Origin: Blastocatellia bacterium
Lineage (GTDB): Bacteria; Acidobacteriota; Blastocatellia; UBA7656; JADIYM01
Assembly (NCBI GenBank): GCA_021463145.1
Contig: JAJTWZ010000037.1
Location: forward strand, 1 to 41,737
Direction: 5' to 3'
DNA: 41,737 bases
Shown here: piece by piece, positions 4,541 to 41,694 of the stretch
Numbering within the stretch: the first letter of the stretch is position 1
How the letters are laid out: every line of letters starts with the position of its first letter
Notes under the pieces: model-generated
What the model saw: the letters and a program-made list of their open reading frames with translations, nothing else
Told to the model about the DNA's origin: nothing
Databases searched by the model: none
Translations under genes and position numbers: made by a program

Positions 4541-5454
4541 ATGATGAGTACTCCGCATTCCCAACAGAGCCCAGGAACCACAGGCAGCAGGCCGGCCGGA
4601 GTTCGGCTGGTTGTAGGCCTGCTCCGGTTGGCGGCTGTCTCGACGATCCTGTTCGGCGTTACCTCCATTGCGAGCGCCCAGGAAGCCGCCCAGTTCTTCC
4701 GCCAGAACTGCATGAGTTGCCACACGATCGGCGGCGGCCGCCTGACGGGCCCCGATCTCAAGGACGTGTCGCAGCGAAAGGACCGAGCGTGGCTCACGAA
4801 GTTCCTGCTCGATCCCAAGGGCACGATCGAAAGCGGCGATCCGTATGCGGCGCAGCTCCAGCAGGAAGCGCGCGGGGTCGTCATGCCGACCGTGTCCGGA
4901 ATGTCGAAGGAACGTGCAGAAGCGCTGCTCGATCTGATCGATGCGGAGTCGAAACTAGAGAAGTCACAGTTCGTCGGACTGCAGATTCCGGACGGACCCT
5001 TCTCCGAGGCCGACATCGCGCGAGGCCGCGACATTTTTCTCGGCAAGATCAAGCTCGTCAACACCGGCCCGTCCTGCGTCTCGTGCCACACGACGATAGG
5101 GCTCGGCGGACTGGGCGGCGGACGGCTCGGTCCTGACCTGAGCAAGGTCTACGAAAGGCTGGAGAACCGCAAGACTCTCGGTTCGTGGTTGCTGGCACCT
5201 CCCACGACCACCATGCAGCCGGTCTTCCGCGATCATCCGCTCGAGGCCGACGAGATCCTGCCGCTCGTGGCCTTTTTCGAGGATCGGGCGCAACGCGGTG
5301 GCGAGGACACGTCGCCGGCAAGGCTCAACTTCTTCCTGATCGGACTCGGCGGAACCGTGCTGGCGCTCGTCGGATTCGACCTGGCGTGGCGGAAGCGCTT
5401 CCGGGCGGTTCGCCGTCCGCTGGTCAAGGGCGCCGAATTGAAGCGAGGGGAACG

Positions 5455-5458
<4 letters not shown>
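4541..5458 (+). CDS. Membrane-anchored diheme cytochrome c (NarC-like)
   Basis: A 305-aa periplasmic cytochrome. It has a signal peptide (hydrophobic ~21-42, likely cut near SIASA/QE) and two class-I heme domains: C57-M-S-C-H61 with likely axial M115, and C179-V-S-C-H183 with likely axial M225. A C-terminal membrane helix (~262-282) and a basic cytoplasmic tail follow. This mirrors the diheme NarC that heads the Thermus nar operon. Expected role: pass electrons between NarI/quinol and soluble or ACIII-linked cytochromes. The start is one of two adjacent ATGs (4541 or 4544). Its stop overlaps the narG start (ATGA), implying translational coupling. A nitrite-oxidoreductase-associated cytochrome is the alternative reading. 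Confidence 0.85.
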
Positions 5459-9099
<3,641 letters not shown>

Positions 9100-9115
9100 G
9101 AGAGAGGTAAACACA

Positions 9116-10606
9116 ATGGACGTACGCTCGCAGATTTCGATGGTGTTTCACCTCGACAAATGTATCGGCTGCCACACGTGCAGCATCGCCTGCAAGAACA
9201 TCTGGACCGACCGCCCGGGCGCCGAATACATGTGGTGGAACAATGTGGAGACGAAGCCAGGCACGGGCTACCCGACCGCCTGGGAGGACCAGGAGAAGTA
9301 CAAAGGCGGCTGGGAACTGCGCGACGGCAAACTCGGCCTGAAGTCGACCGGCAAACGGCGGACGATAACGAACATCTTCCACCATCCGCACCAGCCGAGC
9401 ATGGACGACTACTACGAGCCCTGGACCTACGACTACCAGAACCTGTTCAACGCGCCCGAGGGGCCCGATCAGCCGACGGCAATTCCGATCTCGATGGTCA
9501 CTGGCGAGTACCTCGACATCGAGGCGGGGCCGAACTGGGACGACGACCTCGGAGGCTCGCCTGTCTACGCGGAGAACGATCCGAACCTCGATGGACTGAC
9601 GCCAGAGCAGCGCGAGCAGCTCTCCGCGGTCGAACGGCTCGTCTTCTTCTACTTCCCGCGTATCTGCAATCACTGCCTCAACCCCGGCTGCGTCGCGGCA
9701 TGCCCGTCGGGTGCTCTCTACAAGCGCGGCGAGGACGGCATCGTGCTCCTCGATCAGAACCGGTGCCGCGCGTGGCGCTCGTGCATCGCGGCCTGTCCGT
9801 ACAAGAAGGTCTTCTACAACTGGTCCACCGGAAAGTCGGAGAAGTGCATCCTGTGCTTCCCGCGAATCGAGACCGGCCAGGCTCCGGCCTGCTTCCATTC
9901 CTGCGTCGGGCGAATCCGGTATCTCGGCGTGCTGCTCTACGACGCCGAGCAGATCGAATCGGTCGCCAAGCGCCCCGACGAAGAGCTCATCGACGCGCAC
10001 CGCGACATGGTCCTCGACCCGTTCGATCCGGCCGTGATCGAAGCGGCGCTCGCCAACGGCGTCCACGAATCGGTGATCGACTCCGCGCAGAAGTCGCCCG
10101 TCTACAAATATGTGAAGACGTGGAAGATCGCGTTGCCTCCGCACATCGAGTTCCGCACGTTGCCGATGCTCTTCTACGTGCCGCCAATGTCTCCGGTAAT
10201 GGCGAGCCGCGAGGGCGAAACCGTCGACCACATCTCCGACAACCTGTTCCACGATATCGACGAGTCGCGCGTGCCGATGCAGTTCCTCGCGAACCTCTTC
10301 GGAGCGGGCCACGAGGCGAAGGTGCGCTATGCGCTCAGGAAGCAGAAGGCGGTCAGGTGGTATCGGCGCGCCATCACCGTCGGCGACGTCGACATGGAGA
10401 CGGCGATGCGGATGCTCACCGAGGCGGACTGCACCGTCGAGGAAGCCGAGGCGATCTACAAGCTGACGTCGCTGTGCACTTTCGACGACCGCTTCGTCAT
10501 TCCGCCCGCGCACCGCGAAGAGGCGATCCAGATGCTCGAGGATCCAATGGAGCACAAGCAGAGCGTGGGCTTCGGGTTCGTTGCCCGGCCGAGGAGGGGG
10601 ATGTGA
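9116..10606 (+). CDS. narH: Nitrate reductase beta subunit, four Fe-S clusters
   Basis: A 496-aa electron-transfer subunit on the cytoplasmic membrane face. All ligand cysteines are present and, remarkably, fall at the same residue numbers as in E. coli NarH: C16/19/22/26, C184/187/192/196, C217/223/227 and C244/247/259/263. W220 replaces a cysteine in the third group, the hallmark of the [3Fe-4S] FS4 cluster. There is no frameshift or truncation. An AGAGG element precedes the ATG, 16 nt after narG. The stop overlaps the narJ GTG start (GTGA). Confidence 0.97.
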   Translation: MDVRSQISMVFHLDKCIGCHTCSIACKNIWTDRPGAEYMWWNNVETKPGTGYPTAWEDQEKYKGGWELRDGKLGLKSTGKRRTITNIFHHPHQPSMDDYYEPWTYDYQNLFNAPEGPDQPTAIPISMVTGEYLDIEAGPNWDDDLGGSPVYAENDPNLDGLTPEQREQLSAVERLVFFYFPRICNHCLNPGCVAACPSGALYKRGEDGIVLLDQNRCRAWRSCIAACPYKKVFYNWSTGKSEKCILCFPRIETGQAPACFHSCVGRIRYLGVLLYDAEQIESVAKRPDEELIDAHRDMVLDPFDPAVIEAALANGVHESVIDSAQKSPVYKYVKTWKIALPPHIEFRTLPMLFYVPPMSPVMASREGETVDHISDNLFHDIDESRVPMQFLANLFGAGHEAKVRYALRKQKAVRWYRRAITVGDVDMETAMRMLTEADCTVEEAEAIYKLTSLCTFDDRFVIPPAHREEAIQMLEDPMEHKQSVGFGFVARPRRGM

Positions 10607-11166
10607 TTGCAGAGTCCACAAACTCCTACGACCTGCTCGCGCGGCTGGTCGCCTACCCGGAAGCGTCGTTCTTCGACGACGTGGCCGAATGCCGCCAGGC
10701 GCTCCAGACGGATTGCCCCAGGGCCGGCACGTTGGTGAGTTGCTTCGAGGAAGCCATAAGGGGCGAAACGGTCGAGGAGGTCGACGAACTGTTCACCAGG
10801 ACGTTCGACATCAATCCGATCTGTTCGCTCGAGGTCGGATGGCAACTCTTCGGCGAGAACTACAGCCGCGGCGAGTTCCTCGTATCGATGCGCCAGACCC
10901 TGCGCGACCTCGATCTGCCCGAGTCGACCGAGCTTCCGGACCACCTGATGCACGTTCTTGCGATCCTCGGACGAATGGAGGATGAGCGCGCGGACGGATT
11001 CGCCGCCGCGTGCGTGCAGCCGGCGGTCGACAAGATGCTCAAGGGCCTCAAGGGAAAGTCGAACCCGTACGCAAACGTGCTCGAAGCCATCAGGGAAGTG
11101 CTCGAGCTTCGGCACCCGAATACCGGCGCGGACGAAAAGCCCGACGGAGGGAAATCATGGAACTGA
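10603..11166 (+). CDS. narJ: Nitrate reductase molybdenum cofactor assembly chaperone
   Basis: A 187-aa TorD/NarJ-type helical chaperone that binds apo-NarG and guides Mo-cofactor and FS0 insertion before membrane docking. The recognisable family segment is LEVGWQLFGENYSRGEFL, followed by LPDHLMHVLAILGRM. I chose the GTG at 10603: it overlaps the narH stop by four bases and has GAGGAGG seven to ten bases upstream. The long open frame upstream is a narH shadow. The last ten bases overlap the narI start. Confidence 0.92.
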   Translation: MIAESTNSYDLLARLVAYPEASFFDDVAECRQALQTDCPRAGTLVSCFEEAIRGETVEEVDELFTRTFDINPICSLEVGWQLFGENYSRGEFLVSMRQTLRDLDLPESTELPDHLMHVLAILGRMEDERADGFAAACVQPAVDKMLKGLKGKSNPYANVLEAIREVLELRHPNTGADEKPDGGKSWN

Positions 11167-11864
11167 CGACTGCATTCCTGAACCTGCTGTTCTTCGCGAT
11201 CCTTCCGTACGTCGCGCTCTTCACGTTCTTTCTGGTGACGATCCAGCGTTACCGGTCACAGAAGTTCACTTATTCGAGCCTCTCCTCGCAGATGCTCGAG
11301 AACCAGGATCACTTCTGGGGTCTGGTTCCGTTCCACTACGGCATCCTGACGGTTCTGGGCGGGCACATCATCGCGTTCCTGCTTCCGGCGCAGGTCCTGC
11401 TCTGGAACCGCGCGTTGCCTCGCCTCTACATCACGGAGTTCGTGATGCTGATCGGCGGTGTGCTGACGGTAGTAGGACTGCTGAACCTGATCATCCGCCG
11501 CGTCCGGTACAGCAAGGTCAGGCGGGTGACATCGTTGCCGGACTGGATACTCTACGGGCTGCTGGCGAACCAGGTCGTCACGGGCCTTCTCGTGGCGCTG
11601 CTCTATCCGTGGGGTTCCTCCTGGTTTGCGGCGACCGCCGCGCCGTACCTCTGGTCGATCGTGAAGCTCAACCCGGACCTCGCGTACGTGTCGGCCGTGC
11701 CGTTCCTCGTGAAGCTGCACGTCGTCAATGCCTGGCTCGTCATCGGGTTCTTCCCGTTCACGCGGCTCGTTCACATCCTTGTGGTTCCGAATCCGTATCT
11801 GTGGCGCAAGCCGCAGGTCGTCCGGTGGAACTGGAACCGCAACGACATACGGAACACCAACTGA
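11157..11864 (+). CDS. narI: Nitrate reductase gamma subunit, diheme cytochrome b
   Basis: A 235-aa integral membrane protein with five predicted helices that oxidises quinol and passes electrons through two b hemes to NarH. Four histidines, H60, H70, H188 and H206, sit in paired helices with the H-x9-H and H-x17-H spacing expected of NarI axial ligands. The start lies within the narJ 3' end with GGAGG just upstream. It is followed after 28 nt by actA with its own strong Shine-Dalgarno sequence. No narK transporter gene follows, unlike many nar operons. Confidence 0.95.
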   Translation: MELTTAFLNLLFFAILPYVALFTFFLVTIQRYRSQKFTYSSLSSQMLENQDHFWGLVPFHYGILTVLGGHIIAFLLPAQVLLWNRALPRLYITEFVMLIGGVLTVVGLLNLIIRRVRYSKVRRVTSLPDWILYGLLANQVVTGLLVALLYPWGSSWFAATAAPYLWSIVKLNPDLAYVSAVPFLVKLHVVNAWLVIGFFPFTRLVHILVVPNPYLWRKPQVVRWNWNRNDIRNTN

Positions 11865-11892
11865 TCGGGAAGAGGAGGCGGAGGAGGTTCGC

Positions 11893-12573
11893 ATGCAACA
11901 GGCAACCGAAACGGGATGGCTGGGAAGCCGGAGGCTGACCACGCTGCTCATCATTGCGCTGATATTCGGGAGCGCGCTGCTCGTGACCGGCTTCGGCCCG
12001 ATGCGCCTCCCGGGCGACCAGCAGGGATACGAGCCGGCGCAGCCGATCAAGTTTTCGCACCGGCTTCACGCCGGAGAACTTGCGATCGACTGCTTCTACT
12101 GCCACAGCGGGGCCGAGAAGAGCAGGCACGCCGGCGTTCCGGCGGCCAGCACCTGCATGAACTGCCACAAGAACATTACGTCGACCTTCGGCGCCTTCAG
12201 GGCCGAGGACGACCTGGCGAAGAAGGAAGGCCGGCCGCCCCGTCAGATCGTGTCCGCCGAGCTCCGAAAGCTCTACGACGCGCTTGGGCTCGACGACGCG
12301 CGCAAGCCGGACCCGGCGAAGACTCCCAAGCCGATCCAGTGGGTGCGAATCCACACCGTTCCCGATTTCGTCCACTTCGATCACAGCGCACACGTGAACG
12401 CCGGCGTGACGTGCCAGCAGTGCCACGGCACGGTGCAGGCAATGGAGCGGCTCAGGCAGGACAGCGACCTTGGAATGGGCTGGTGCGTCAACTGCCACAG
12501 GACTTCGAACAAGTCGGGTGTCGCCGGGAAGCCAGTTCACGCGTCTATCGACTGCGCCACGTGCCATCACTGA
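11893..12573 (+). CDS. actA: Alternative complex III pentaheme cytochrome c subunit
   Basis: A 226-aa protein with one N-terminal membrane anchor (~15-33) and exactly five CxxCH heme sites at 67-71, 88-92, 174-178, 198-202 and 221-225, the ActA pattern. It is the periplasmic heme wire of the quinol:cytochrome c oxidoreductase ACIII. I chose the ATG at 11893 because GAGGAGG (11881-11887) lies six bases upstream; the longer open frame is a narI shadow. The start is only 28 nt after narI, so actA-F appear to be read with nar. The protein ends in CATCHH, so the last heme is at the extreme C-terminus. Confidence 0.95.
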   Translation: MQQATETGWLGSRRLTTLLIIALIFGSALLVTGFGPMRLPGDQQGYEPAQPIKFSHRLHAGELAIDCFYCHSGAEKSRHAGVPAASTCMNCHKNITSTFGAFRAEDDLAKKEGRPPRQIVSAELRKLYDALGLDDARKPDPAKTPKPIQWVRIHTVPDFVHFDHSAHVNAGVTCQQCHGTVQAMERLRQDSDLGMGWCVNCHRTSNKSGVAGKPVHASIDCATCHH

Positions 12574-12589
12574 GGTTGAGATACTGACT

Positions 12590-15556
12590 ATGTCCGAATC
12601 CGATCCGAAACCGACGACCCCAGCCGATGACTGGATGACATCACGGCGCACGTTCCTCCGCGCGGCGGGCTTCACGTTCGCCAGCGCGATGATCACGGGC
12701 TGTCAGTCGTCGCCAATCCATCACGCGATTCCGTACCTGGTCCAGCCGGAGGACGTCGTCCCGGGCAGGCCGGTCTACTACGCCGGCACCTGCAGTGGCT
12801 GCTCGTCGGGTTGCGGAGTGCTCGTGAAGAACCGCGACGGCCGCCCGATCAAGATCGAGGGTTACACCGATCACGCGCTTTCGCAGGGGGGCGTGTGCGC
12901 GGTCGGGCAGGCCCACCTGCTTGGCCTCTACGACAATCTGAGGTTCTCCGGCCCGCGGCGCGACGGCCAGCCGGTCGAATGGACCGATGTCGATGCCGAG
13001 ATCGCCGCCCAGATCGCCAAGGTGAAGGCGGAGGGCGGCGCGGTCCGTTACCTCTCCGGAACCGTGAGCGGGCCGGCCTCACGCACGGTGGTCGAGAAGT
13101 TCCTCGGAGGTTTCGCGGACGCCCGCTGGGTGATGTACGACCCGATCTCGTCGTCGGCGATCCTGGATTCGCACGAAAGGACGCACGGGGCGCGTGTCCT
13201 TCCACGGTACCGCTTCGAAAAGGCCGACGTCGTCGTTTCGTTCGGCGCGGACTTCCTCGGAACGTGGACGTCGCCGGTCGAGCACACGGCGGGATATCGC
13301 GCGCGCCGGACTCCCGACGACCCGGCCGTCCCGATGTCGTACCACGTGCAGTTCGAATCGCGGCTTTCGACGACCGGTGGAAAGGCCGACCGGAGGTTCA
13401 GGGTCGCGCCATCCGAAATGGGCGCGCTCGTTTCCGGACTTGCGGCGCTCGTCGCGAGGAAGGCAGGGACCGAGCTCGCGGGAGCCGCGGCGCCGGCGGC
13501 ACACGCGGAAGCTCTTGCCGAGGTTGCCGAGCGGCTCTGGGCGGCGAAAGGGAAATGTCTCGTCGTCAGCGGCAGCCAGGATGTCCAGGTCCAGGCGCTC
13601 TGCAACTTCATTAATCACCTGCTTGGCAATTACGACCAGACGCTCGACGTTACGGCGCCGTCGAACCAGAGGCTGGGAAGCGACAGTGCGCTTGCCGCGC
13701 TGCTCGACGAGTTGCGCGGAGGGCGCGTGAAGGCGCTCTTCATCGATGGCGTCGATCCCGTCTACGACCTCGGCCTCGCGACGGAACTCGCCGACGCGAT
13801 CCGACGCGTTCCGCTGGTCGTCAACTTTGCGTCGCGCAACGACGAGACGGCCGTAGCGTCGAAGTTCGTCTGCCCCGACCACCACGCGCTCGAGTCGTGG
13901 ACGGACTCCGAGCCGGTCCGCGGAATCGTGAACCTGTCGCAGCCAGCCACCCGGCCGTTGTTGGCAACGCGGTCGGTACTCGAGTCGCTGTCGGCCTGGA
14001 TGGGCGAGCCCCGCTCGATTCTCGACATCGTCCGATCGACCTGGGAAACGAAGGTCTTCCCCAGACAGACGGCACAGCCGGTGTTCCTCACGTTCTGGGA
14101 GCGCTCCGTACAGGACGGATTCTGCACGGTCACCCCGGAGCCCGTCGCGGCATCTGCATTCAACCTGGCGGCGGTAAAGCCGGCCGGCGAGGCGCACGCC
14201 GCCGCGGCCGGTCAACTCGAAGTCGTCGTCTACCCGACTGTGGGAATGCTCGACGGGCGCCACGCCTACAATGCCTGGCTTCACGAAATGCCCGACCCGA
14301 TGACGCGCGTCACGTGGGACAGTTACGCGTGCCTGGCGCCGGCGACCGCCAAGCGGCTCGGCCTTTCGGAGGGTGACGTCGTGCGCGTCGCGGCCGCCGA
14401 GCCGGGAGCGAGCGTCGAGTGCTCGGTCGTGATTCAACCCGGACAGCATGAGGGCGTCGTTTCTCTGCCGATGGGTTACGGCAGCCGCCTGAGCGAGCGG
14501 TTCGCAAACGTCGGTCCGCAGTGGCTCGAGAGCAGGACGGCGGTTGGCGACGATGGCCGAGTGGGCCGGCACGCGGGACCGTTCGTGACGATGCGCGAGG
14601 GAGCGCGTCTGTTCGACGGCCGTCCGGTGCAGGTTTCGCCGACGGGCCGCAGCCGGCCGCTAGCGGCGGTTCAGCTGCATCACGCGCTGACCGCCCCGGA
14701 GGAGCTCGATGGCCTCGGGTTCGAGCGGCGCGACATAGTTCGCCAGACGACTTTCGCCGAACTGCACGACGAAAAGAGCCACGGCGGGCACGGCGAACAT
14801 CACGGCGGTCCGAGCGAGCTCTGGCCCCAGGACCATCCGGTTACGGGCCCGAAATGGGGAATGTCGATCGACCTGTCCGCTTGCACGGGCTGTTCCGCCT
14901 GCGTCGTGGCGTGCCAGGTAGAGAACAACGTCCCCGTGGTCGGCCGGGACGAGGTGATGAGGCATCGAGAGATGCACTGGATCCGCATCGACCGGTACTA
15001 CGAAGGCGACGGCGACGACGTCTCGTTCCAGCCGATGATGTGCCAGCAGTGCGGGGTGGCCGGTTGCGAGACCGTCTGTCCCGCGCTCGCGACCCTGCAC
15101 AGCGAGGACGGACTGAACCAGCAGGTATACAACCGCTGCGTCGGTACGAGGTACTGCGCCAACAACTGCGCGTACAAGGTCAGGCGCTTCAACTGGTTCG
15201 ACTATCCGCACGCCGATCGTTTCGAAAATCTGGTGCTCAATCCGGACGTGGTCGTTCGATCGCGGGGCGTGATGGAGAAGTGCAGTTTCTGCGTGCAGCG
15301 CATACAGGAGGCGCGGATCGCGGCAAAGGCGAGAGGCGAAGCGATCGCCGACGGCGCCATCCAACCGGCGTGCCAGCAGACGTGCCCGGCACGCGCCATT
15401 ACGTTCGGAGACTTGAACGATCCGAACAGTGCGCTTTCGAAGGCCAACCACGGCCGGCGTAGCTATCGCGTCCTTGAAGAAGTAGGCACGGAGCCCTCGG
15501 TTACCTACCGGGCGGTCGTCCGCAATCGTGAAGGAGGAGAGGGCCATCATGGCTGA
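12590..15556 (+). CDS. actB: Alternative complex III Fe-S/molybdopterin-like subunit
   Basis: A 988-aa fusion of a molybdopterin-oxidoreductase-like half and a ferredoxin half, as in all ActB proteins; the family carries no molybdenum. A twin-arginine signal ([12 protein letters not shown] at 19-20) runs straight into ITGC38, a lipobox, so it is probably a Tat-exported lipoprotein. An N-terminal CSGCSSGC motif plus a later Cys (GGVCAVGQ) resembles an Fe-S site. The C-terminal half (from ~760) has C765/768/771/775 and three further cysteine groups for 3Fe/4Fe clusters. It overlaps actC by 8 nt. Confidence 0.95.
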
Positions 15557-17449: not shown

Positions 17450-18075
17450 TGGGCAGAAGAACCGTCAACCTGATACTCATCGCGCTGCTGGCGGGACTTG
17501 CGGCGGCCGGATGGATCGTCCAGAGCGATCCATCGAAGCCGAACTACGTCTTCCTGCCGAACATGGTCGAGTCCGTTCCTTACGACTCGTTTGCCGAGAA
17601 CCCGAATTTCGCCGACGGCAAGACGCTCCAGTTACCGCCCGACGGCACGATTCCGCGCGGCGCGGTCCGGCTGCACTACTCTACGGGGACTGAAGAGGCG
17701 AAGAGGGCCGGGCAGGAACTGACCAATCCGTTCAAGCTTTCCGATACCGATGCCGTCCGTCGCGGTTCGGTCATATACGGCCGCTACTGCGCCGTGTGCC
17801 ACGGCGGCACGGGAAAGGGTGACGGACCCGTTGCGATGCGCGGTTTTCCCCCGCCGCCCGCATTCACGGATGCCAAGTCGCTCGCGATGGCCGACGGCGA
17901 GATGTTCCACCTGATCACCTACGGCGGCGAGAACATGCCGTCCTATGCGACGCAGGTATCACAGGAGGATCGATGGAAAGCCATCCTGTTCGTCCACGTC
18001 ATTCAACAGAAGGAACAGGCGGCGGCCGCGGCAGCGGCGCAGTCGCCAGTTCCGCCGGCTCCTCCAGCGCAATGA
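17449..18075 (+). CDS. actE: Alternative complex III monoheme cytochrome c subunit
   Basis: A 208-aa periplasmic cytochrome with an N-terminal membrane segment (~6-24), one CxxCH (114-118) and likely axial M163 in ENMPSYA. The tail is Ala/Pro-rich and low in complexity. Two starts are possible, GTG 17446 or ATG 17449. GAGGAGG at 17435-17441 is better spaced for the ATG, so that is used. No lipobox cysteine is visible near the N-terminus. Its stop overlaps actF (ATGA). Confidence 0.93.
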   Translation: MGRRTVNLILIALLAGLAAAGWIVQSDPSKPNYVFLPNMVESVPYDSFAENPNFADGKTLQLPPDGTIPRGAVRLHYSTGTEEAKRAGQELTNPFKLSDTDAVRRGSVIYGRYCAVCHGGTGKGDGPVAMRGFPPPPAFTDAKSLAMADGEMFHLITYGGENMPSYATQVSQEDRWKAILFVHVIQQKEQAAAAAAAQSPVPPAPPAQ

Positions 18076-19244
18076 TGATCCCTGCACTCGAATTCGATTC
18101 TCACTCGGCGCCGTCGTTTGCGACACGACTGTGCGCAATTGCCGGCGCGATCTGTCTGGTTGCGGGCGCTGTCCTTTCCCCGGCTTCGGTATGGCCATAC
18201 CTTCTGCTGCTCAGCTACGCGCTGGTTGGTCTCGGTGTCGGCGCCTTGTCCTTCATCGCGCTACAGTACATCGTCGGGAGCGGGTGGGCAGCGGCCTTCA
18301 GGCGTGTCCCGGAAGCAATGATCGCAGTCCTGCCGCTGGGGTTCGTGGGGCTCTGGGTCGTGTTCCTCGCGCACCCGTCCCTGTATCCCTGGCAGGGCGC
18401 CGCGCACGACGCGGCGCCGGGACTGGCGTGGTTCAAGCAGGCATGGCTGTCGTGGCCATTCTTCCTGGTACGGGCTGCTGTGTACATGGCCCTCTGGGCG
18501 GCATTCGGGTACGCGATGCTTCGGCATTCGCGAAAGCAGGACGAGACGGGTGACGTTTCGCACACGAAGTCGAACATCCACCTGTCGGCTGGCTTTCTCG
18601 CCGTATTCGGCATCACGTCGTTTCTCGCCAGTGTCGACTGGATCATGTCGCTGGAGCCGCACTGGTACAGCACGATGTTCGGCTGGTACAACTTTGCCGG
18701 GCAGTTCGAAAGCGCGCTGGCGGTTATCATCCTGCTGGTCGTATGGCTCGAGAGGCGCGGGCCGCTGCGGGGCGTGATCAACGAAGCGCATCTGCACGAC
18801 CTGGGCAAGCTGCTTTTCGCGTTCAGCACGTTCTGGATGTATCTCTGGTTCAGCCAGTACCTGCTGATCTGGTACAGCAACATCCCGGAAGAGACGGTGT
18901 ACTTCACGGCAAGGTTGCGCGGATGGTGGATGCCGTTCTCGATGGCGAGTCTGCTGTTGAACTGGGTCGTGCCGTTCGTCGTGCTGATGACGATTCCGGT
19001 CAAGCGCAACGCGAGCGCGCTCACGAAGGTGGCCGTCGCGGTACTGGTAGGGCGATGGTTCGATCTATACCTGATGATCTTCCCGTCGCAGTCGCCGGAC
19101 GGACCGGTTTTCGGCATCTGGGAGGCGGGAATGACGATCGGCGCGATTGCGGCGGTCATCCTGGTCGTCCGCTCGGCGCTGGGTGCGGCCAACATCATTC
19201 CAAAGGGTGACCCTTACATCCGGGAGAGCCTGCATCACCACTAG
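18072..19244 (+). CDS. actF: Alternative complex III second polytopic subunit
   Basis: A 390-aa membrane protein with about ten helices, related to ActC but diverged, and the last ACIII gene here. Typical ActF stretches include SVDWIMSLEPHWYSTMFG, FSTFWMYLWFSQYLLIWYSN and WVVPFVVLM. ATG 18072 overlaps the actE stop; ATG 18075 would shorten it by one residue. After it the plus-strand block ends at strong hairpins. No caa3/cbb3 oxidase gene follows, although such genes often accompany ACIII in other bacteria. Confidence 0.93.
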   Translation: MMIPALEFDSHSAPSFATRLCAIAGAICLVAGAVLSPASVWPYLLLLSYALVGLGVGALSFIALQYIVGSGWAAAFRRVPEAMIAVLPLGFVGLWVVFLAHPSLYPWQGAAHDAAPGLAWFKQAWLSWPFFLVRAAVYMALWAAFGYAMLRHSRKQDETGDVSHTKSNIHLSAGFLAVFGITSFLASVDWIMSLEPHWYSTMFGWYNFAGQFESALAVIILLVVWLERRGPLRGVINEAHLHDLGKLLFAFSTFWMYLWFSQYLLIWYSNIPEETVYFTARLRGWWMPFSMASLLLNWVVPFVVLMTIPVKRNASALTKVAVAVLVGRWFDLYLMIFPSQSPDGPVFGIWEAGMTIGAIAAVILVVRSALGAANIIPKGDPYIRESLHHH

Positions 19245-19286
19245 GAGCGCGTGTCGTCGAGTTTGATTTCCGTCCTGTTCCGGTGA

Positions 19287-19310
19287 GGTCGCGGACGCGT
19301 GTCCGCGACC
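19287..19310. terminator. Strong hairpin downstream of actF
   Basis: GGTCGCGGAC pairs perfectly with GTCCGCGACC around a 4-nt GCGT loop, 42 nt after the actF stop. There is no U-run, so it may be a Rho-independent-like stop, an mRNA 3' stabiliser, or both. It serves convergent genes. Confidence 0.6.
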
Positions 19311-19347
19311 GTGGATCGATGGATGAATGCGCCGCCGGCTGAGCGGC

Positions 19348-19435
19348 GTCGAACCCGGAGCGCCAACGGGCCGGCCGTGCCATCCGCGCCGCGTGAGGTG
19401 GACGGCCGGCCCGTCGCTTGCGCTCCGGGTACGAC
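19348..19435. repeat. Long imperfect hairpin with GGGCCGGCC core, dispersed repeat
   Basis: An inverted repeat with arms of about 35 bp: GTCGAACCCGGAGCGC and ACGGGCCGGCCGT on the left are mirrored on the right by ACGGCCGGCCCGT and GCGCTCCGGGTACGAC. The inner 13 bp are perfect and the outer 16 bp have one mismatch. Each arm closely resembles sequence at 40621-40655, so this looks like a family member placed between the convergent actF and VWFA genes. It could act as a bidirectional terminator. Confidence 0.75.
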
Positions 19436-19450
19436 TCGCGGAGAGGGGAG

Positions 19451-21607
19451 CTATTTCACCGAGAACTTCGATTCCCGCATCGACGAACGACCCTGCTCGT
19501 CGCGGACGTTGAGCCGCATCAGGTAATCGCCAGCCGGAATGTCCTTGCACGGAATCGCCGTGAACACCCAGCCACTCGCGCCGCCGGATGCCGGCATCAA
19601 GTCCAGTTCGAGCGATGCGAGCAACTGCTTGCCCTGCCAGATCGAAAGTACGGGCTTCTTCATTGCCCGGCCCTCGGGCCAATAGACGGCAGCGAGAATC
19701 GTCATCGCGTCCGCCTGTGAAAACACCGGCGTCGCGAGCGGCACGAGGTACTTGCCGCCAGTCTGAAAGCTCGGTTCGCCGGCCCCTTCCGGAGCGACTA
19801 CGTTGCGGCCAAGGACGATGTCGCTCGCCGCCGGACCAGACGACCAGTCGAGCCCGCGCACCTGCTGAACCGAACTGCCGATCGATCCGGTCTGCTCGCC
19901 CGACAGGATGGCCTCGACGCGCACAACGTCCCCTTCGGCCACGTCGAAGCCGCCCTCGAGCCGCAGGCCCTCGGCCCGGACCAGGGCCGCCTGCTCTGGC
20001 GTCAGGTTCAGGTTGATCGGAATGCGACCCGTGGCAAGCACACGATCGGCGGAGTCTCGCGCGATCAGAAGCCCGTAGTAACTGCCCGTCAGCGCCTTCT
20101 CGTCCGACTCCGTCAGCGAAATCGCTTCGGCGGGCACCGTGAGCGCGTAGCTGACGCGCGTTCCGCCTGCCGGAATGCCGAAGGCGTAGGATCGAAGAGT
20201 GAAGGGAAGCGACTTCCTGGCGCCGTCCTGATGTGCCCGGATGTAAAGCCGCTGATCCTCGAGCCTGAAAAGACCCCGCGCCTCGGTCGGGATTGCGAAG
20301 TACCCCTCGCGAGCGCGGACCGTCGCGCCCGCGTGGTTCTTTACCCTGACGCTGATCTTCCGGTACTCGCCCGTTTCCCAGTCACGCGTCGGCGCGTAAT
20401 AAATAAGGTAATAGCTTCGCTGATCGCGATCGATCTCGGCGAGTCCCTTGAACAGATCGTTGCTGTTCTTCATGAAGAGACCGCCGGTCCGTGAGGCGAA
20501 CTCGGCAAGTATGTCGGTTCTCGTGTTCGAATTGCGCGTGATGTTGTCGAAGATGCCGCCCCGGATCGATGACGTCCTTTCGGAGTTGAAATCGCTTCCT
20601 CGCATCCCGGCCGCGTTCTGAACCCTGTCCACTTCGGCGCGCGATGTGGAGCCCCTCTCCGATGCCGTATCGAGTCCACGAGCGTCGATTACGTAGAGCG
20701 TCACGCCGGCCGCGGCCGCGGCGTTGAGCACCCGTTCCTTCACATCCTGCACCTGTTTTACCTGCAGCAGGCCCTCCGAGAAGAGCGTGATGCTGCGGCG
20801 TCCCGGCAAGACCCGGTGGGCGTCGATGAGCGCAGTCAATGCGTCGTAGATCGTCCACGAGATACCGAGCGCCTGCATTTCCTCGGCCTGCTCGATCGAT
20901 CGCTTTGCGAGGCGCAGCGCAACTTCGCCCGCATCGGGCGGAGTCGCTGCCTCCGCGGCGCCGACACCCGCCGTACCCGACGAACTCGTGCCCTCCTCGG
21001 TGCCGGGTGCCGCGTACGTCGAATAGGCGTCGCCAGGAAGACGCACGCGCGCAAGGTCGATGCCCGCCTTCTCGGCCGCTCTCAACGTTCCGATTCCGCC
21101 CGTCTTCGTGTTCGCCAGCGCGGCAACGATAGCCTGCTTGTCGTTCGTCGTCGTCTGGAGGAGCCGCAGTCCGCCGGTGCCGATGGTGAAAAGCGTTACG
21201 TAATCGTCCGACGTCATCACAGTCTGCACATACTTCTCGATGGCGGCACGGACGTCCGCGAGGTGGACGTCCTCGACAGTTCCGTCCGTGACGACGATGG
21301 TGTGATACGTCGCAGTTCCGCTCGGCAAAGGCGCCGCTCCCGCACCGCGAGCGGCAGACGCATCCGCGATTCGGCCAACCGACTTGACGCGTGTGATCGG
21401 CTGGGGGATCCCGTCCTCGAGCACTTCGAAGTCACTCGCGGTGAGACCAGCCATCGGGCGACGGTCCTTGTCGAGGACTACGGCATCGACGAGTACCTCG
21501 ACCGATTCGAGCTGGGCCTGGCCGCCGTCAGGCGCCGGTTGCTGTGCGGCCGCGCTTCCGGCCGCAACAATCATGATAGCGAGTACCGTCGAGATGAACT
21601 TGCTCAC
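19451..21607 (-). CDS. Secreted VWFA-related (Acidobacterial-type) protein
   Basis: A 718-aa exported protein. The signal peptide ends near SAAAQQ (residue ~21). A region with DAVVLDKDRRPMAGLTASDF and EVLEDGIPQPI follows, the standard opening of the 'VWFA-related Acidobacterial domain' family. Next comes a von Willebrand A-like fold in which the usual DxSxS metal site reads D108-GTVE, so metal binding may be altered. The family tail GGLFMKNSNDLFKGLAEI ... YYLIYYAP is present. The GTG start is favoured because it is preceded by TTGGAGTT and begins directly before the signal peptide. Function is unknown in the family; adhesion or surface binding is usual for VWFA folds. It lies downstream of a hairpin and the IPT gene on the same strand. 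Confidence 0.85.
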   Translation of the reverse strand: MSKFISTVLAIMIVAAGSAAAQQPAPDGGQAQLESVEVLVDAVVLDKDRRPMAGLTASDFEVLEDGIPQPITRVKSVGRIADASAARGAGAAPLPSGTATYHTIVVTDGTVEDVHLADVRAAIEKYVQTVMTSDDYVTLFTIGTGGLRLLQTTTNDKQAIVAALANTKTGGIGTLRAAEKAGIDLARVRLPGDAYSTYAAPGTEEGTSSSGTAGVGAAEAATPPDAGEVALRLAKRSIEQAEEMQALGISWTIYDALTALIDAHRVLPGRRSITLFSEGLLQVKQVQDVKERVLNAAAAAGVTLYVIDARGLDTASERGSTSRAEVDRVQNAAGMRGSDFNSERTSSIRGGIFDNITRNSNTRTDILAEFASRTGGLFMKNSNDLFKGLAEIDRDQRSYYLIYYAPTRDWETGEYRKISVRVKNHAGATVRAREGYFAIPTEARGLFRLEDQRLYIRAHQDGARKSLPFTLRSYAFGIPAGGTRVSYALTVPAEAISLTESDEKALTGSYYGLLIARDSADRVLATGRIPINLNLTPEQAALVRAEGLRLEGGFDVAEGDVVRVEAILSGEQTGSIGSSVQQVRGLDWSSGPAASDIVLGRNVVAPEGAGEPSFQTGGKYLVPLATPVFSQADAMTILAAVYWPEGRAMKKPVLSIWQGKQLLASLELDLMPASGGASGWVFTAIPCKDIPAGDYLMRLNVRDEQGRSSMRESKFSVK

Positions 21608-40276: not shown

Positions 40277-40842
40277 ACCTGTATCTCGTTCCATTCGTAA
40301 GCTGTTGATTCGGACGCCGCCTGATACGACGAGATTCCCAAGCCTGTTTCATCGGAGTTCGGGCAGCGCCAGATGCCCTTCCAGCCAGCAGTCGGCCAGA
40401 TAGAAGCCGGAATCCGTCGCCCGCGTGCAACGATCGGCGCTCGCCGTACCGCTCGAGCAGTCCTGAACTCCCCGCGCGACGCCGACCAACGCGCCAGGGC
40501 AATCGTGGATCTCGCAACGAAAGGCGCATCCGAACCCACCCGAGCCCGGGCCCGGGCGCGAGCAGAACCGGGCCACCGCCGAGATCCTCCATCGTCCGAC
40601 GGACCGGCAACCCAGTGCCGGTCGTACCCGGAGCGCGACGGGCCGGCCGGGGCGACCCGTGGCGGTCCGCCGCACAGGCGACCCAGCGCCGGTCGACCAC
40701 AGTGCGACGGGCCGGCCGTGGCTACGCGCTCCATCCCGGTCATCGAAGACGCAGCGCGCACAGTGTGGGTTCGTCATTCATCCTTGACGCCGTCGTGCGC
40801 GCCCGCTGATGCTTGACGTTCGGCTGCCTCAACTCCCTCTCG
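40277..40842. other. Repeat-bearing gene-poor region upstream of the tolC-like gene
   Basis: 566 nt without a confident gene. It contains a 71-bp direct repeat (40610-40727), a GCCCGGGCCCGGGC palindrome (40544-40557) and GC-rich sequence open in many frames. On the minus strand a frame ending at 40349 finishes in a plausible cysteine-rich peptide (RCEIHDCPGALVGV ... GFYLADCWLEGHL) with high GC at third codon positions. A small or decayed gene is possible, but no start, signal peptide or ribosome site supports it. Confidence 0.4.
40610..40727. repeat. 71-bp-period direct repeat with GACGGGCCGGCC core
   Basis: Two copies begin with ACCCAG(T/C)GCCGGTCG (40610 and 40681) and share GCGACGGGCCGGCC further in. 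The first copy also contains GTCGTACCCGGAGCGC, nearly identical to the arms of the hairpin at 19348-19435. It is therefore a member of a dispersed, GC-rich, intergenic repeat family. Confidence 0.7.
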
Positions 40843-41373
40843 ATGGCCCGCAACACTACGTCTTCTGCCGAACGAGCATCCGACTGGCTGTCGCGCCCTC
40901 TCCACGTTGTCTTGCTCGCACTCGCTGCCTCAGCCGCGTGGGCCCTCTACGCTGTGCTCCGCTTTCCACCAGAGAAAGCCACGCTCAACCTGGTGTACCA
41001 CGTTCCCATCGTCTTCCCGTTCGTCACGTTTCTCATCGAACGTTCTCGTTCGGCTCGGCAAGCGCCCTCCTGGTCCTTGGCACCTGACTCCGTCGTGCTG
41101 TCGCTGGCGATGTGGCGAATCATCGGCGACGTCCCGCTTGTGTCGGGCCACGCGCTATTCCTGTCGTACGCCGTCCTGACGAGCCGAACTCGAATCACGC
41201 GGTTCGCGGCAATGGTTGTCTTGCTTGAGACACTGTGGCTCAAGTTGATCGTTTGGCACGACTCCGCCACGCTCGGCTTCGGCCTGACGTTGGGTCTCTG
41301 TTTCGCGCTCGTGCACTGGTTGGTTCGCTCACGCGAGGCCCCGATCCCTGTCTTCAAGGGGACGCCGAACTAG
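40843..41373 (+). CDS. Small five-helix membrane protein of unknown function
   Basis: A 176-aa hydrophobic protein with about five helices (starting near PLHVVLLALAASAAWALYAV and ending near GLTLGLCFALVHWLV), not recognised. The start is uncertain: ATG 40843 gives MARNTTSS and no ribosome site is obvious; an upstream in-frame ATG at 40813 adds ten residues. Third codon positions are less GC-rich than in the rest of the window, which suggests recent acquisition or low expression. It lies between the repeat-rich gap and the terminal repeat. Confidence 0.55.
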   Translation: MARNTTSSAERASDWLSRPLHVVLLALAASAAWALYAVLRFPPEKATLNLVYHVPIVFPFVTFLIERSRSARQAPSWSLAPDSVVLSLAMWRIIGDVPLVSGHALFLSYAVLTSRTRITRFAAMVVLLETLWLKLIVWHDSATLGFGLTLGLCFALVHWLVRSREAPIPVFKGTPN

Positions 41374-41385
41374 CGCATCCAGCGG

Positions 41386-41567
41386 AGTTCATCTCATTGC
41401 TTCGCACTGACAGGGCAGTCTGAAACTCGGAACCCGTCGAACCTGGAATCAACAACTTACAGGGGAGTTTCCTGAGAGTTCGTCTCATTGCTTCGCACTG
41501 ACAGGGCAGTCTGAAACTCGGAATCCGCAGGAACTGGAATCAAGAGCTGGGAGGGGAGTATCTCGAA
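41386..41567. repeat. Two tandem 91-bp units inside terminal repeat copy B
   Basis: Unit 1 (41386-41476) and unit 2 (41477-41567) share their first ~47 bases with one mismatch, including CACTGACAGGGCAGTCTGAA, and later share CTGGAATCAA and GGGGAGT. Copy A at the window start has a single such unit. Unit number therefore varies between copies of the element. Confidence 0.8.
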
Positions 41568-41694
41568 AGACGGCCGTCTCGGCCGCGCAGGCTGTACCCG
41601 TACATTCAGCAAGCCTCTGCGACCGCGGAGCGGTCGATGTAATAGTTCCCCACACGCCTGCGGCGTACCCCCTGGGATGAAACGGGCAGAGGGG
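41477..41694. repeat. Terminal repeat, copy B (inverted relative to window start)
   Basis: Reverse-complement partner of positions 20-275. Positions 41614-41666 are identical to 46-98 (53 bp), and a hairpin (41620-41636, CGACCGC/GCGGTCG) lies inside. A minus-strand open frame crosses it but differs in frame use from copy A and shows no protein family. The remaining 43 nt to the window end (41695-41737) show nothing recognisable. Confidence 0.8.

Follow-up and report, generated by a model that had tools for sequence, protein, structure and literature searches.

At positions 19348-19435 of the window, the whole analysed stretch of 41,737 nucleotides, which is the entire contig C105 of a 5.28 Mb genome in 173 contigs, a palindrome is located between two convergent genes (18072-19244, +, and 19451-21607, -, according to a home-made gene caller). 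On direct reading of the window sequence the two arms, 19348-19382 and 19401-19435, are mutually complementary, and sequence and predicted fold both place a loop or spacer at 19383-19400. Folded as single-stranded DNA, positions 19346-19437 reach -42.4 kcal/mol compared with a mean of -24.9 for shuffled sequences (z -6.6), and none of 200 shuffles was as good. The long hairpin with arms of about 35 bp and its position between convergent genes, both proposed earlier from the sequence, are thus borne out. Further upstream, at 5185-15556, Pfam matches indicate oxidoreductase genes of the molybdopterin and Fe-S types, which may belong to a respiratory complex.

Each arm corresponds to one REP-type half-unit of a repeat that is here called family A. 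The left arm (+; 32.7 bits at 19346-19380) consists of a tag, a hairpin core and GGCCGGCCG, and the right arm (-; 48.2 bits at 19400-19437) is an inverted half-unit and the top-scoring copy in the genome. The arms had been predicted to share words with 40610-40727. This is correct for the right arm, where GTCGTACCCGGAGCGC is exact as it is at 40621-40636, but the left arm deviates, with GTCGAACCCGGAGCGC (one mismatch in its 16-mer) and with AACGGGCCGGCC in place of GACGGGCCGGCC. The distant site was also predicted to have direct repeats, and two direct copies were found there, at 40621 and at about 40690. A complete unit of half-unit and tail at 40621-40689 (+; pattern and model matches) is followed head-to-tail by a degenerate unit at 40690-40750 (+), which begins GTCGACCACAGTGCGACGGGCCGGCCG and has a match of 18.4 bits at 40701-40720, its end being set by eye. 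Positions 40590-40620 (+) probably represent the 3' tail of a further, decayed unit, judged by eye from the resemblance to the tail of the tandem units in contigs C121 and C122.

In the window taken by itself, the 16-mer GTCGTACCCGGAGCGC with up to three mismatches was not significant (3 matches; 18 of 100 shuffles had as many). In the whole genome the same word with up to two mismatches gave 87 matches compared with 12 for a reversed-pattern control, and the 12-mer GACGGGCCGGCC gave 32 exact matches compared with 5 for its control. A sequence model of the half-unit (40 positions, trained on 31 of 39 half-units) resulted in 82 matches at E<=0.01, with 150 of 12,520 candidates scored. The original prediction was to be given up if fewer than a handful of copies existed or if the similarity was explained by chance in GC-rich DNA; the number of copies is clearly far higher, and chance is ruled out genome-wide by the pattern controls. 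Sixty-nine of the 82 matches were placed in their surroundings, and the 13 others are two in C2 and one each in C8, C28, C42, C79, C86 (251724), C90, C109, C119 (41), C129, C140 and C160. When the model was applied to 38 related genomes, 33 had no match at E<=0.01 and five had weak ones with E 0.0018 or worse. Among 162 genomes of the class, including the genome studied, searched with stricter filters and with 40 candidates scored per genome, two others reach E<=1e-4, namely G048 (11 matches) and G052 (3 matches). The exact family A pattern had no match in a collection of 84,980 species, which possibly does not contain the genome studied. An Rfam search of eight sources (the window and loci L100-L106) gave no known family at the feature and only Acido-Lenti-1, elsewhere in the L106 contig.

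The consensus of family A is GTCG-TA-CCCG-GAG-CGCnAGCG-A-CGGG-CCGGCCGTGCG, that is, a tag followed by an imperfect hairpin. The tag is conserved, with G in 60 of 62, T in 59 of 63, C in 63 of 65 and G in 62 of 65 of the rows that have a letter at the position concerned. The three bases preceding the tag are most commonly GGA (17), CCA (12), CCG (10) and AGA (6) in 64 copies. Longer units have about 35 more bases between the hairpin and the next tag, resulting in a tandem period of 70-74 nt in C20, C43, C44, C103, C121, C122 and C147. The proposed stem is paired in 82.8% of cells compared with 26.0-44.1% when the partners are slid. Covariation in the stem did not exceed that of shuffles, so the family A copies by themselves do not prove the stem.

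Family A is mainly extragenic. In 68 of the 69 placed copies (C122:24451 left out), 61 are outside called genes, in stretches of which genes cover 81%, and the gene calls that the seven others overlap (home-made caller) are all weakly scored. Sixteen of the 68 copies are in convergent, 14 in co-directional and 10 in divergent gaps, and 21 beside the end of a stretch are undecided. Several copies are close to the end of a contig. The arrangement was counted in 70 copies, the 69 placed ones and the weak window match at 40701, with copies at most 130 nt apart regarded as neighbours. There are eight pairs with the tags outside, the palindrome included, five pairs with the tags inside and 13 head-to-tail neighbours, while 22 copies are solitary. 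The inverted dimer known from BIMEs is represented by both kinds of pair. The genome-wide count by orientation, pairing and position agrees with the original prediction of an element that occurs as half-units and as palindromes; the tandem form with a period of 70-74 nt was not foreseen. A mosaic repeat (GGACTGTCCCCGG ... GGGACAGTATCGCTTCGCG) with a GGACGGACGGTCTCGG stretch often borders family A copies (L108 at 2150-2800, L113, L116, L189 and L102), and this patchwork has no clear empty sites. One copy, in C157 (L115) at about 684-830, adjoins the end of an apparent CRISPR array (repeat ...CACGCCCCCGCGAAGGGGGC).

These properties suggest that the feature is a REP-type element, and we consider it likely that the palindrome is formed by two facing single-strand hairpins, each with the GTCG tag at its 5' foot. 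The putative enzyme is a RAYT/TnpA-REP-like transposase of the Y1 (HUH) type. Such an enzyme would copy the units as folded single-stranded DNA, two units landing in opposite orientation would generate a palindrome, and repeated landing would generate the 70-74-nt tandems. The REP/BIME interpretation given earlier is supported by the mainly extragenic copies, by the occurrence of half-units and palindromes and by the 5' tag with its hairpin.

No RAYT link of the kind proposed was seen in the genome studied. A Pfam profile search found two Y1_Tnp genes, both flanked by inverted copies of a third repeat, CGACCGCGGAGCGGTCG or a close variant (L068 and L069), and family A is absent at both loci. 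The two proteins pass the NCBIfam cut-off for IS200/IS605 (63.5 and 61.8 bits compared with 55) and are far below that for REP transposases (27.0 and 17.7 bits compared with 80). A RAYT flanked by family A is ruled out for both Y1_Tnp genes found. With their inverted CGACCGCGGAGCGGTCG flanks the two genes recall a group reported from Acidobacteria (PMC3733652), tyrosine transposases whose terminal inverted repeats are long. The palindromic repeat CGACCGCGGAGCGGTCG is also found near both ends of the contig, at 76-92 and 41620-41636 of the window. Because both Y1 transposases are flanked by a different repeat, family A looks orphaned in this genome, or it may be moved in trans. For the same reason family A is called REP-type and orphan here, and we do not regard it as a member proven to have a working transposase.

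The core of family A is also present in three relatives, G008, G048 and G052 (family f3, same class). In G008 the core stems are CCCG/CGGG in 12 of 23 copies and CCGG/CCGG in six, and five are not fully paired; in G048 and G052 they are CCCG/CGGG in 10 of 15 and CCCC/GGGG in three, and two are not fully paired. These alignments place the core in a second family of the class, with apparently compensatory changes in the stem. The repeats in these relatives resemble family A in the tag region, the stem, the GAG/A internal loop and the inner CG pair but are without the GGCCGGCCGTGCG tail. In G048 and G052 they differ from family A also in a tandem period of 29-31 nt, and one of the arrays flanks a Y1 transposase gene. 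This gene, in G048 contig C27, encodes a protein of 173 amino acids. By eye, it has five tandem copies of a core variant upstream, in one of which the stem is disrupted, and downstream there are two complete inverted copies and a third that is truncated by the end of the stretch. The protein passes the Pfam Y1_Tnp cut-off (31.7 compared with 23) but not those of NCBIfam for IS200 (30.6 compared with 55) and REP transposase (23.2 compared with 80). Among the Y1 loci retrieved, two of 26 in G048 and G052 contain the core motif with up to two mismatches, as does one of eight in G008, about 1.4 kb from the gene. A putative transposase link is seen only for a related core and in one other genome of the class (G048). 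Family A would add a REP-type lineage in which a hairpin core is common to families of a class and a link to a transposase can be recognised in one genome but not in a second, and this makes the orphaning of REPs testable.

The surroundings of the 40.6-kb array brought a feature that the original prediction had not foreseen, a mixing of the copies with integron attC sites and with a second repeat, here called B. The attC box consensus is RYYYAAC...GTTRRRY (R''/R'), and the usual attC names are used for the stem. Alignment with attC-like sites identifies the 3' half of such a site at 40751-40824 (+), abutting the family A array and ending with CGTTCGGC, which is similar to an R' box. It is followed by a small ORF of 176 amino acids at 40843-41373 (+; caller start 40912), in the position of a gene cassette between two attC pieces and without any Pfam match at E<=0.01, and by the 5' half of the next site at 41364-41387 (+; GCCGAACTAGCGCATCCAGCGGAG). 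Two tandem copies of repeat B are present in that site, at 41385-41475 (+; repeat search and alignment) and 41476-41566 (+; repeat search), and a further copy is near the other contig end at 178-279 (-; 76.0 bits).

Repeat B has a length of 91 nt, and its first 32 bases with up to three mismatches gave 35 matches in the genome and none in the control. An exact stretch of repeat B had two stray matches in the collection of 84,980 species, in a Dehalococcoidia MAG and an Oscillatoria MAG, and a conserved RNA fold for B was rejected, with six weak pairs of which none changed on both sides. Repeat B is often found within attC-like sites, in the order GAAC...CAGCGGAG, B and CGCGCGC...CGCTGATGCTTGACGTT. 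Both attC halves were recognised around six of 47 copies, one half around 13 and none around 28, by crude motifs that miss some halves visible by eye. The repeat is present in contigs including C88, C10, C30, C41, C43 and C97, often at GCGGAG of an attC-like site and with up to four tandem copies (C30). Sites without B in C152, where the same contig has a filled site, C85 and C88 can be aligned with filled sites to the left and to the right of B; a pattern search for such sites gave three matches compared with one in the control. In one C88 site an identical main stem is predicted with B present and with B removed. Small ORFs interspersed with attC-like sites at about 3.5-10 kb of C88 (L100) have a third-position GC of 0.58-0.71 compared with 0.72-0.79 for ORFs at 10.7 kb and beyond. 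No integron integrase in the genome exceeded the profile cut-off; there were 18 matches below it, and this profile gives matches below cut-off in 14 of 14 control genomes too. C88:3500-9500 and window positions 40751-41387 appear to be integron-like cassette regions, similar to CALINs, without an integrase over the cut-off.

Copies of family A follow or interrupt repeat B in C20, C44 and C64. It is conceivable, though rather doubtful, that A and B are protein-free single-strand elements landing in the folded attC stem, at GCGGAG of the L'' arm or close by, and that each insertion regenerates GAG and enables tandem stacking. The filled and empty sites and the tandem stacking suggest that B and A may land actively in attC, and loss of B at some sites may also apply. 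If true, REP-like DNA would have a target in attC hairpins, and the cassette sites built in this way would be composite and possibly disabled. Insertion sequences of the IS1111-attC group and group IIC-attC introns are mobile DNA known to land in attC sites; they encode proteins and are much longer, while the 70-74 nt of A and the 91 nt of B do not suffice to encode a protein. REPs inside target palindromes have been recorded (PMC3733652, section 7), and a landing in the stems of attC sites would be a variant of that pattern. The mixing suggests that REPs and integrons, two single-strand hairpin systems, can meet at the same DNA.

Several other explanations of the palindrome were considered. 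The hairpin is very stable and stands between convergent genes, as do other copies among the 16 of 68 in such gaps, which would suit a transcription terminator or a stabiliser of mRNA 3' ends for the gene pair. However, a search of 19150-19550 found no intrinsic terminator, family A copies are present in co-directional and divergent gaps too, with 21 of 68 undecided beside stretch ends, and the tandem arrays and the tag would be left unexplained; it is unlikely as the primary function, but the hairpin could have such a role as a secondary use. The eight pairs with tags outside resemble elements of 82-96 nt with long inverted ends and would suit a classical MITE, a non-autonomous DNA transposon that depends on a DDE transposase and would here have terminal inverted repeats of 35 bp. 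We regard a MITE as very unlikely because the flanks of these pairs have no consistent target duplication (by eye), and the solitary half-units and head-to-tail neighbours are not expected of a unit that is delimited by a pair of inverted ends.

The proximity of A to repeat B or to an attC half at 40.6 kb in the window and in C20, C44 and C64 raises the question whether family A is itself a fragment of an attC recombination site that has spread with gene cassettes. Neither A nor the palindrome has RYYYAAC/GTTRRRY boxes on inspection, many A copies including the palindrome have no attC motif by eye in 110-130 nt of flank, and in the relatives the core is a simple repeat, either tandem or inverted, which makes such an origin highly improbable.

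REPs of the GTAG super-family (GTAG-tagged REPs, BIMEs and REPINs) are among the known systems that come closest to family A. No description of the family A core or of REP elements in attC sites was found in the titles and abstract beginnings of the literature matches listed, and a search with core sequence strings gave no title on bacterial repeats among the matches listed. REPs of this super-family are often limited to one species, and in some families a variant tag, for example GTMG, is allowed (PMC3733652, section 5). The GTCG tag fits the GTMG form, and GTCG as the start of a word was not found in the accessible text of PMC3733652. TnpA-REP recognises and cleaves single strands according to PMC8266576. 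Family A differs from the GTAG super-family in that its longer units continue for about 35 bases beyond the hairpin, 70-74-nt head-to-tail arrays are frequent, no flanking RAYT was found in its own genome and copies are stacked with another repeat where attC sites occur. REPs with a CGTC tag resemble family A in that they have no dedicated transposase and are mostly dimers with the tags outside, as described in PMC3733652, where their stems are given as 8-9 bp; their tag is different, since family A has GTCG before a CCCG/CGGG stem. Family A shares with the GTAG super-family the form of short tagged imperfect palindromes, mainly extragenic and occurring singly and as inverted dimers, and by comparison of its copies it agrees with the REP kind as regards the tag, the hairpin, the mostly extragenic position and the way in which copies are paired.
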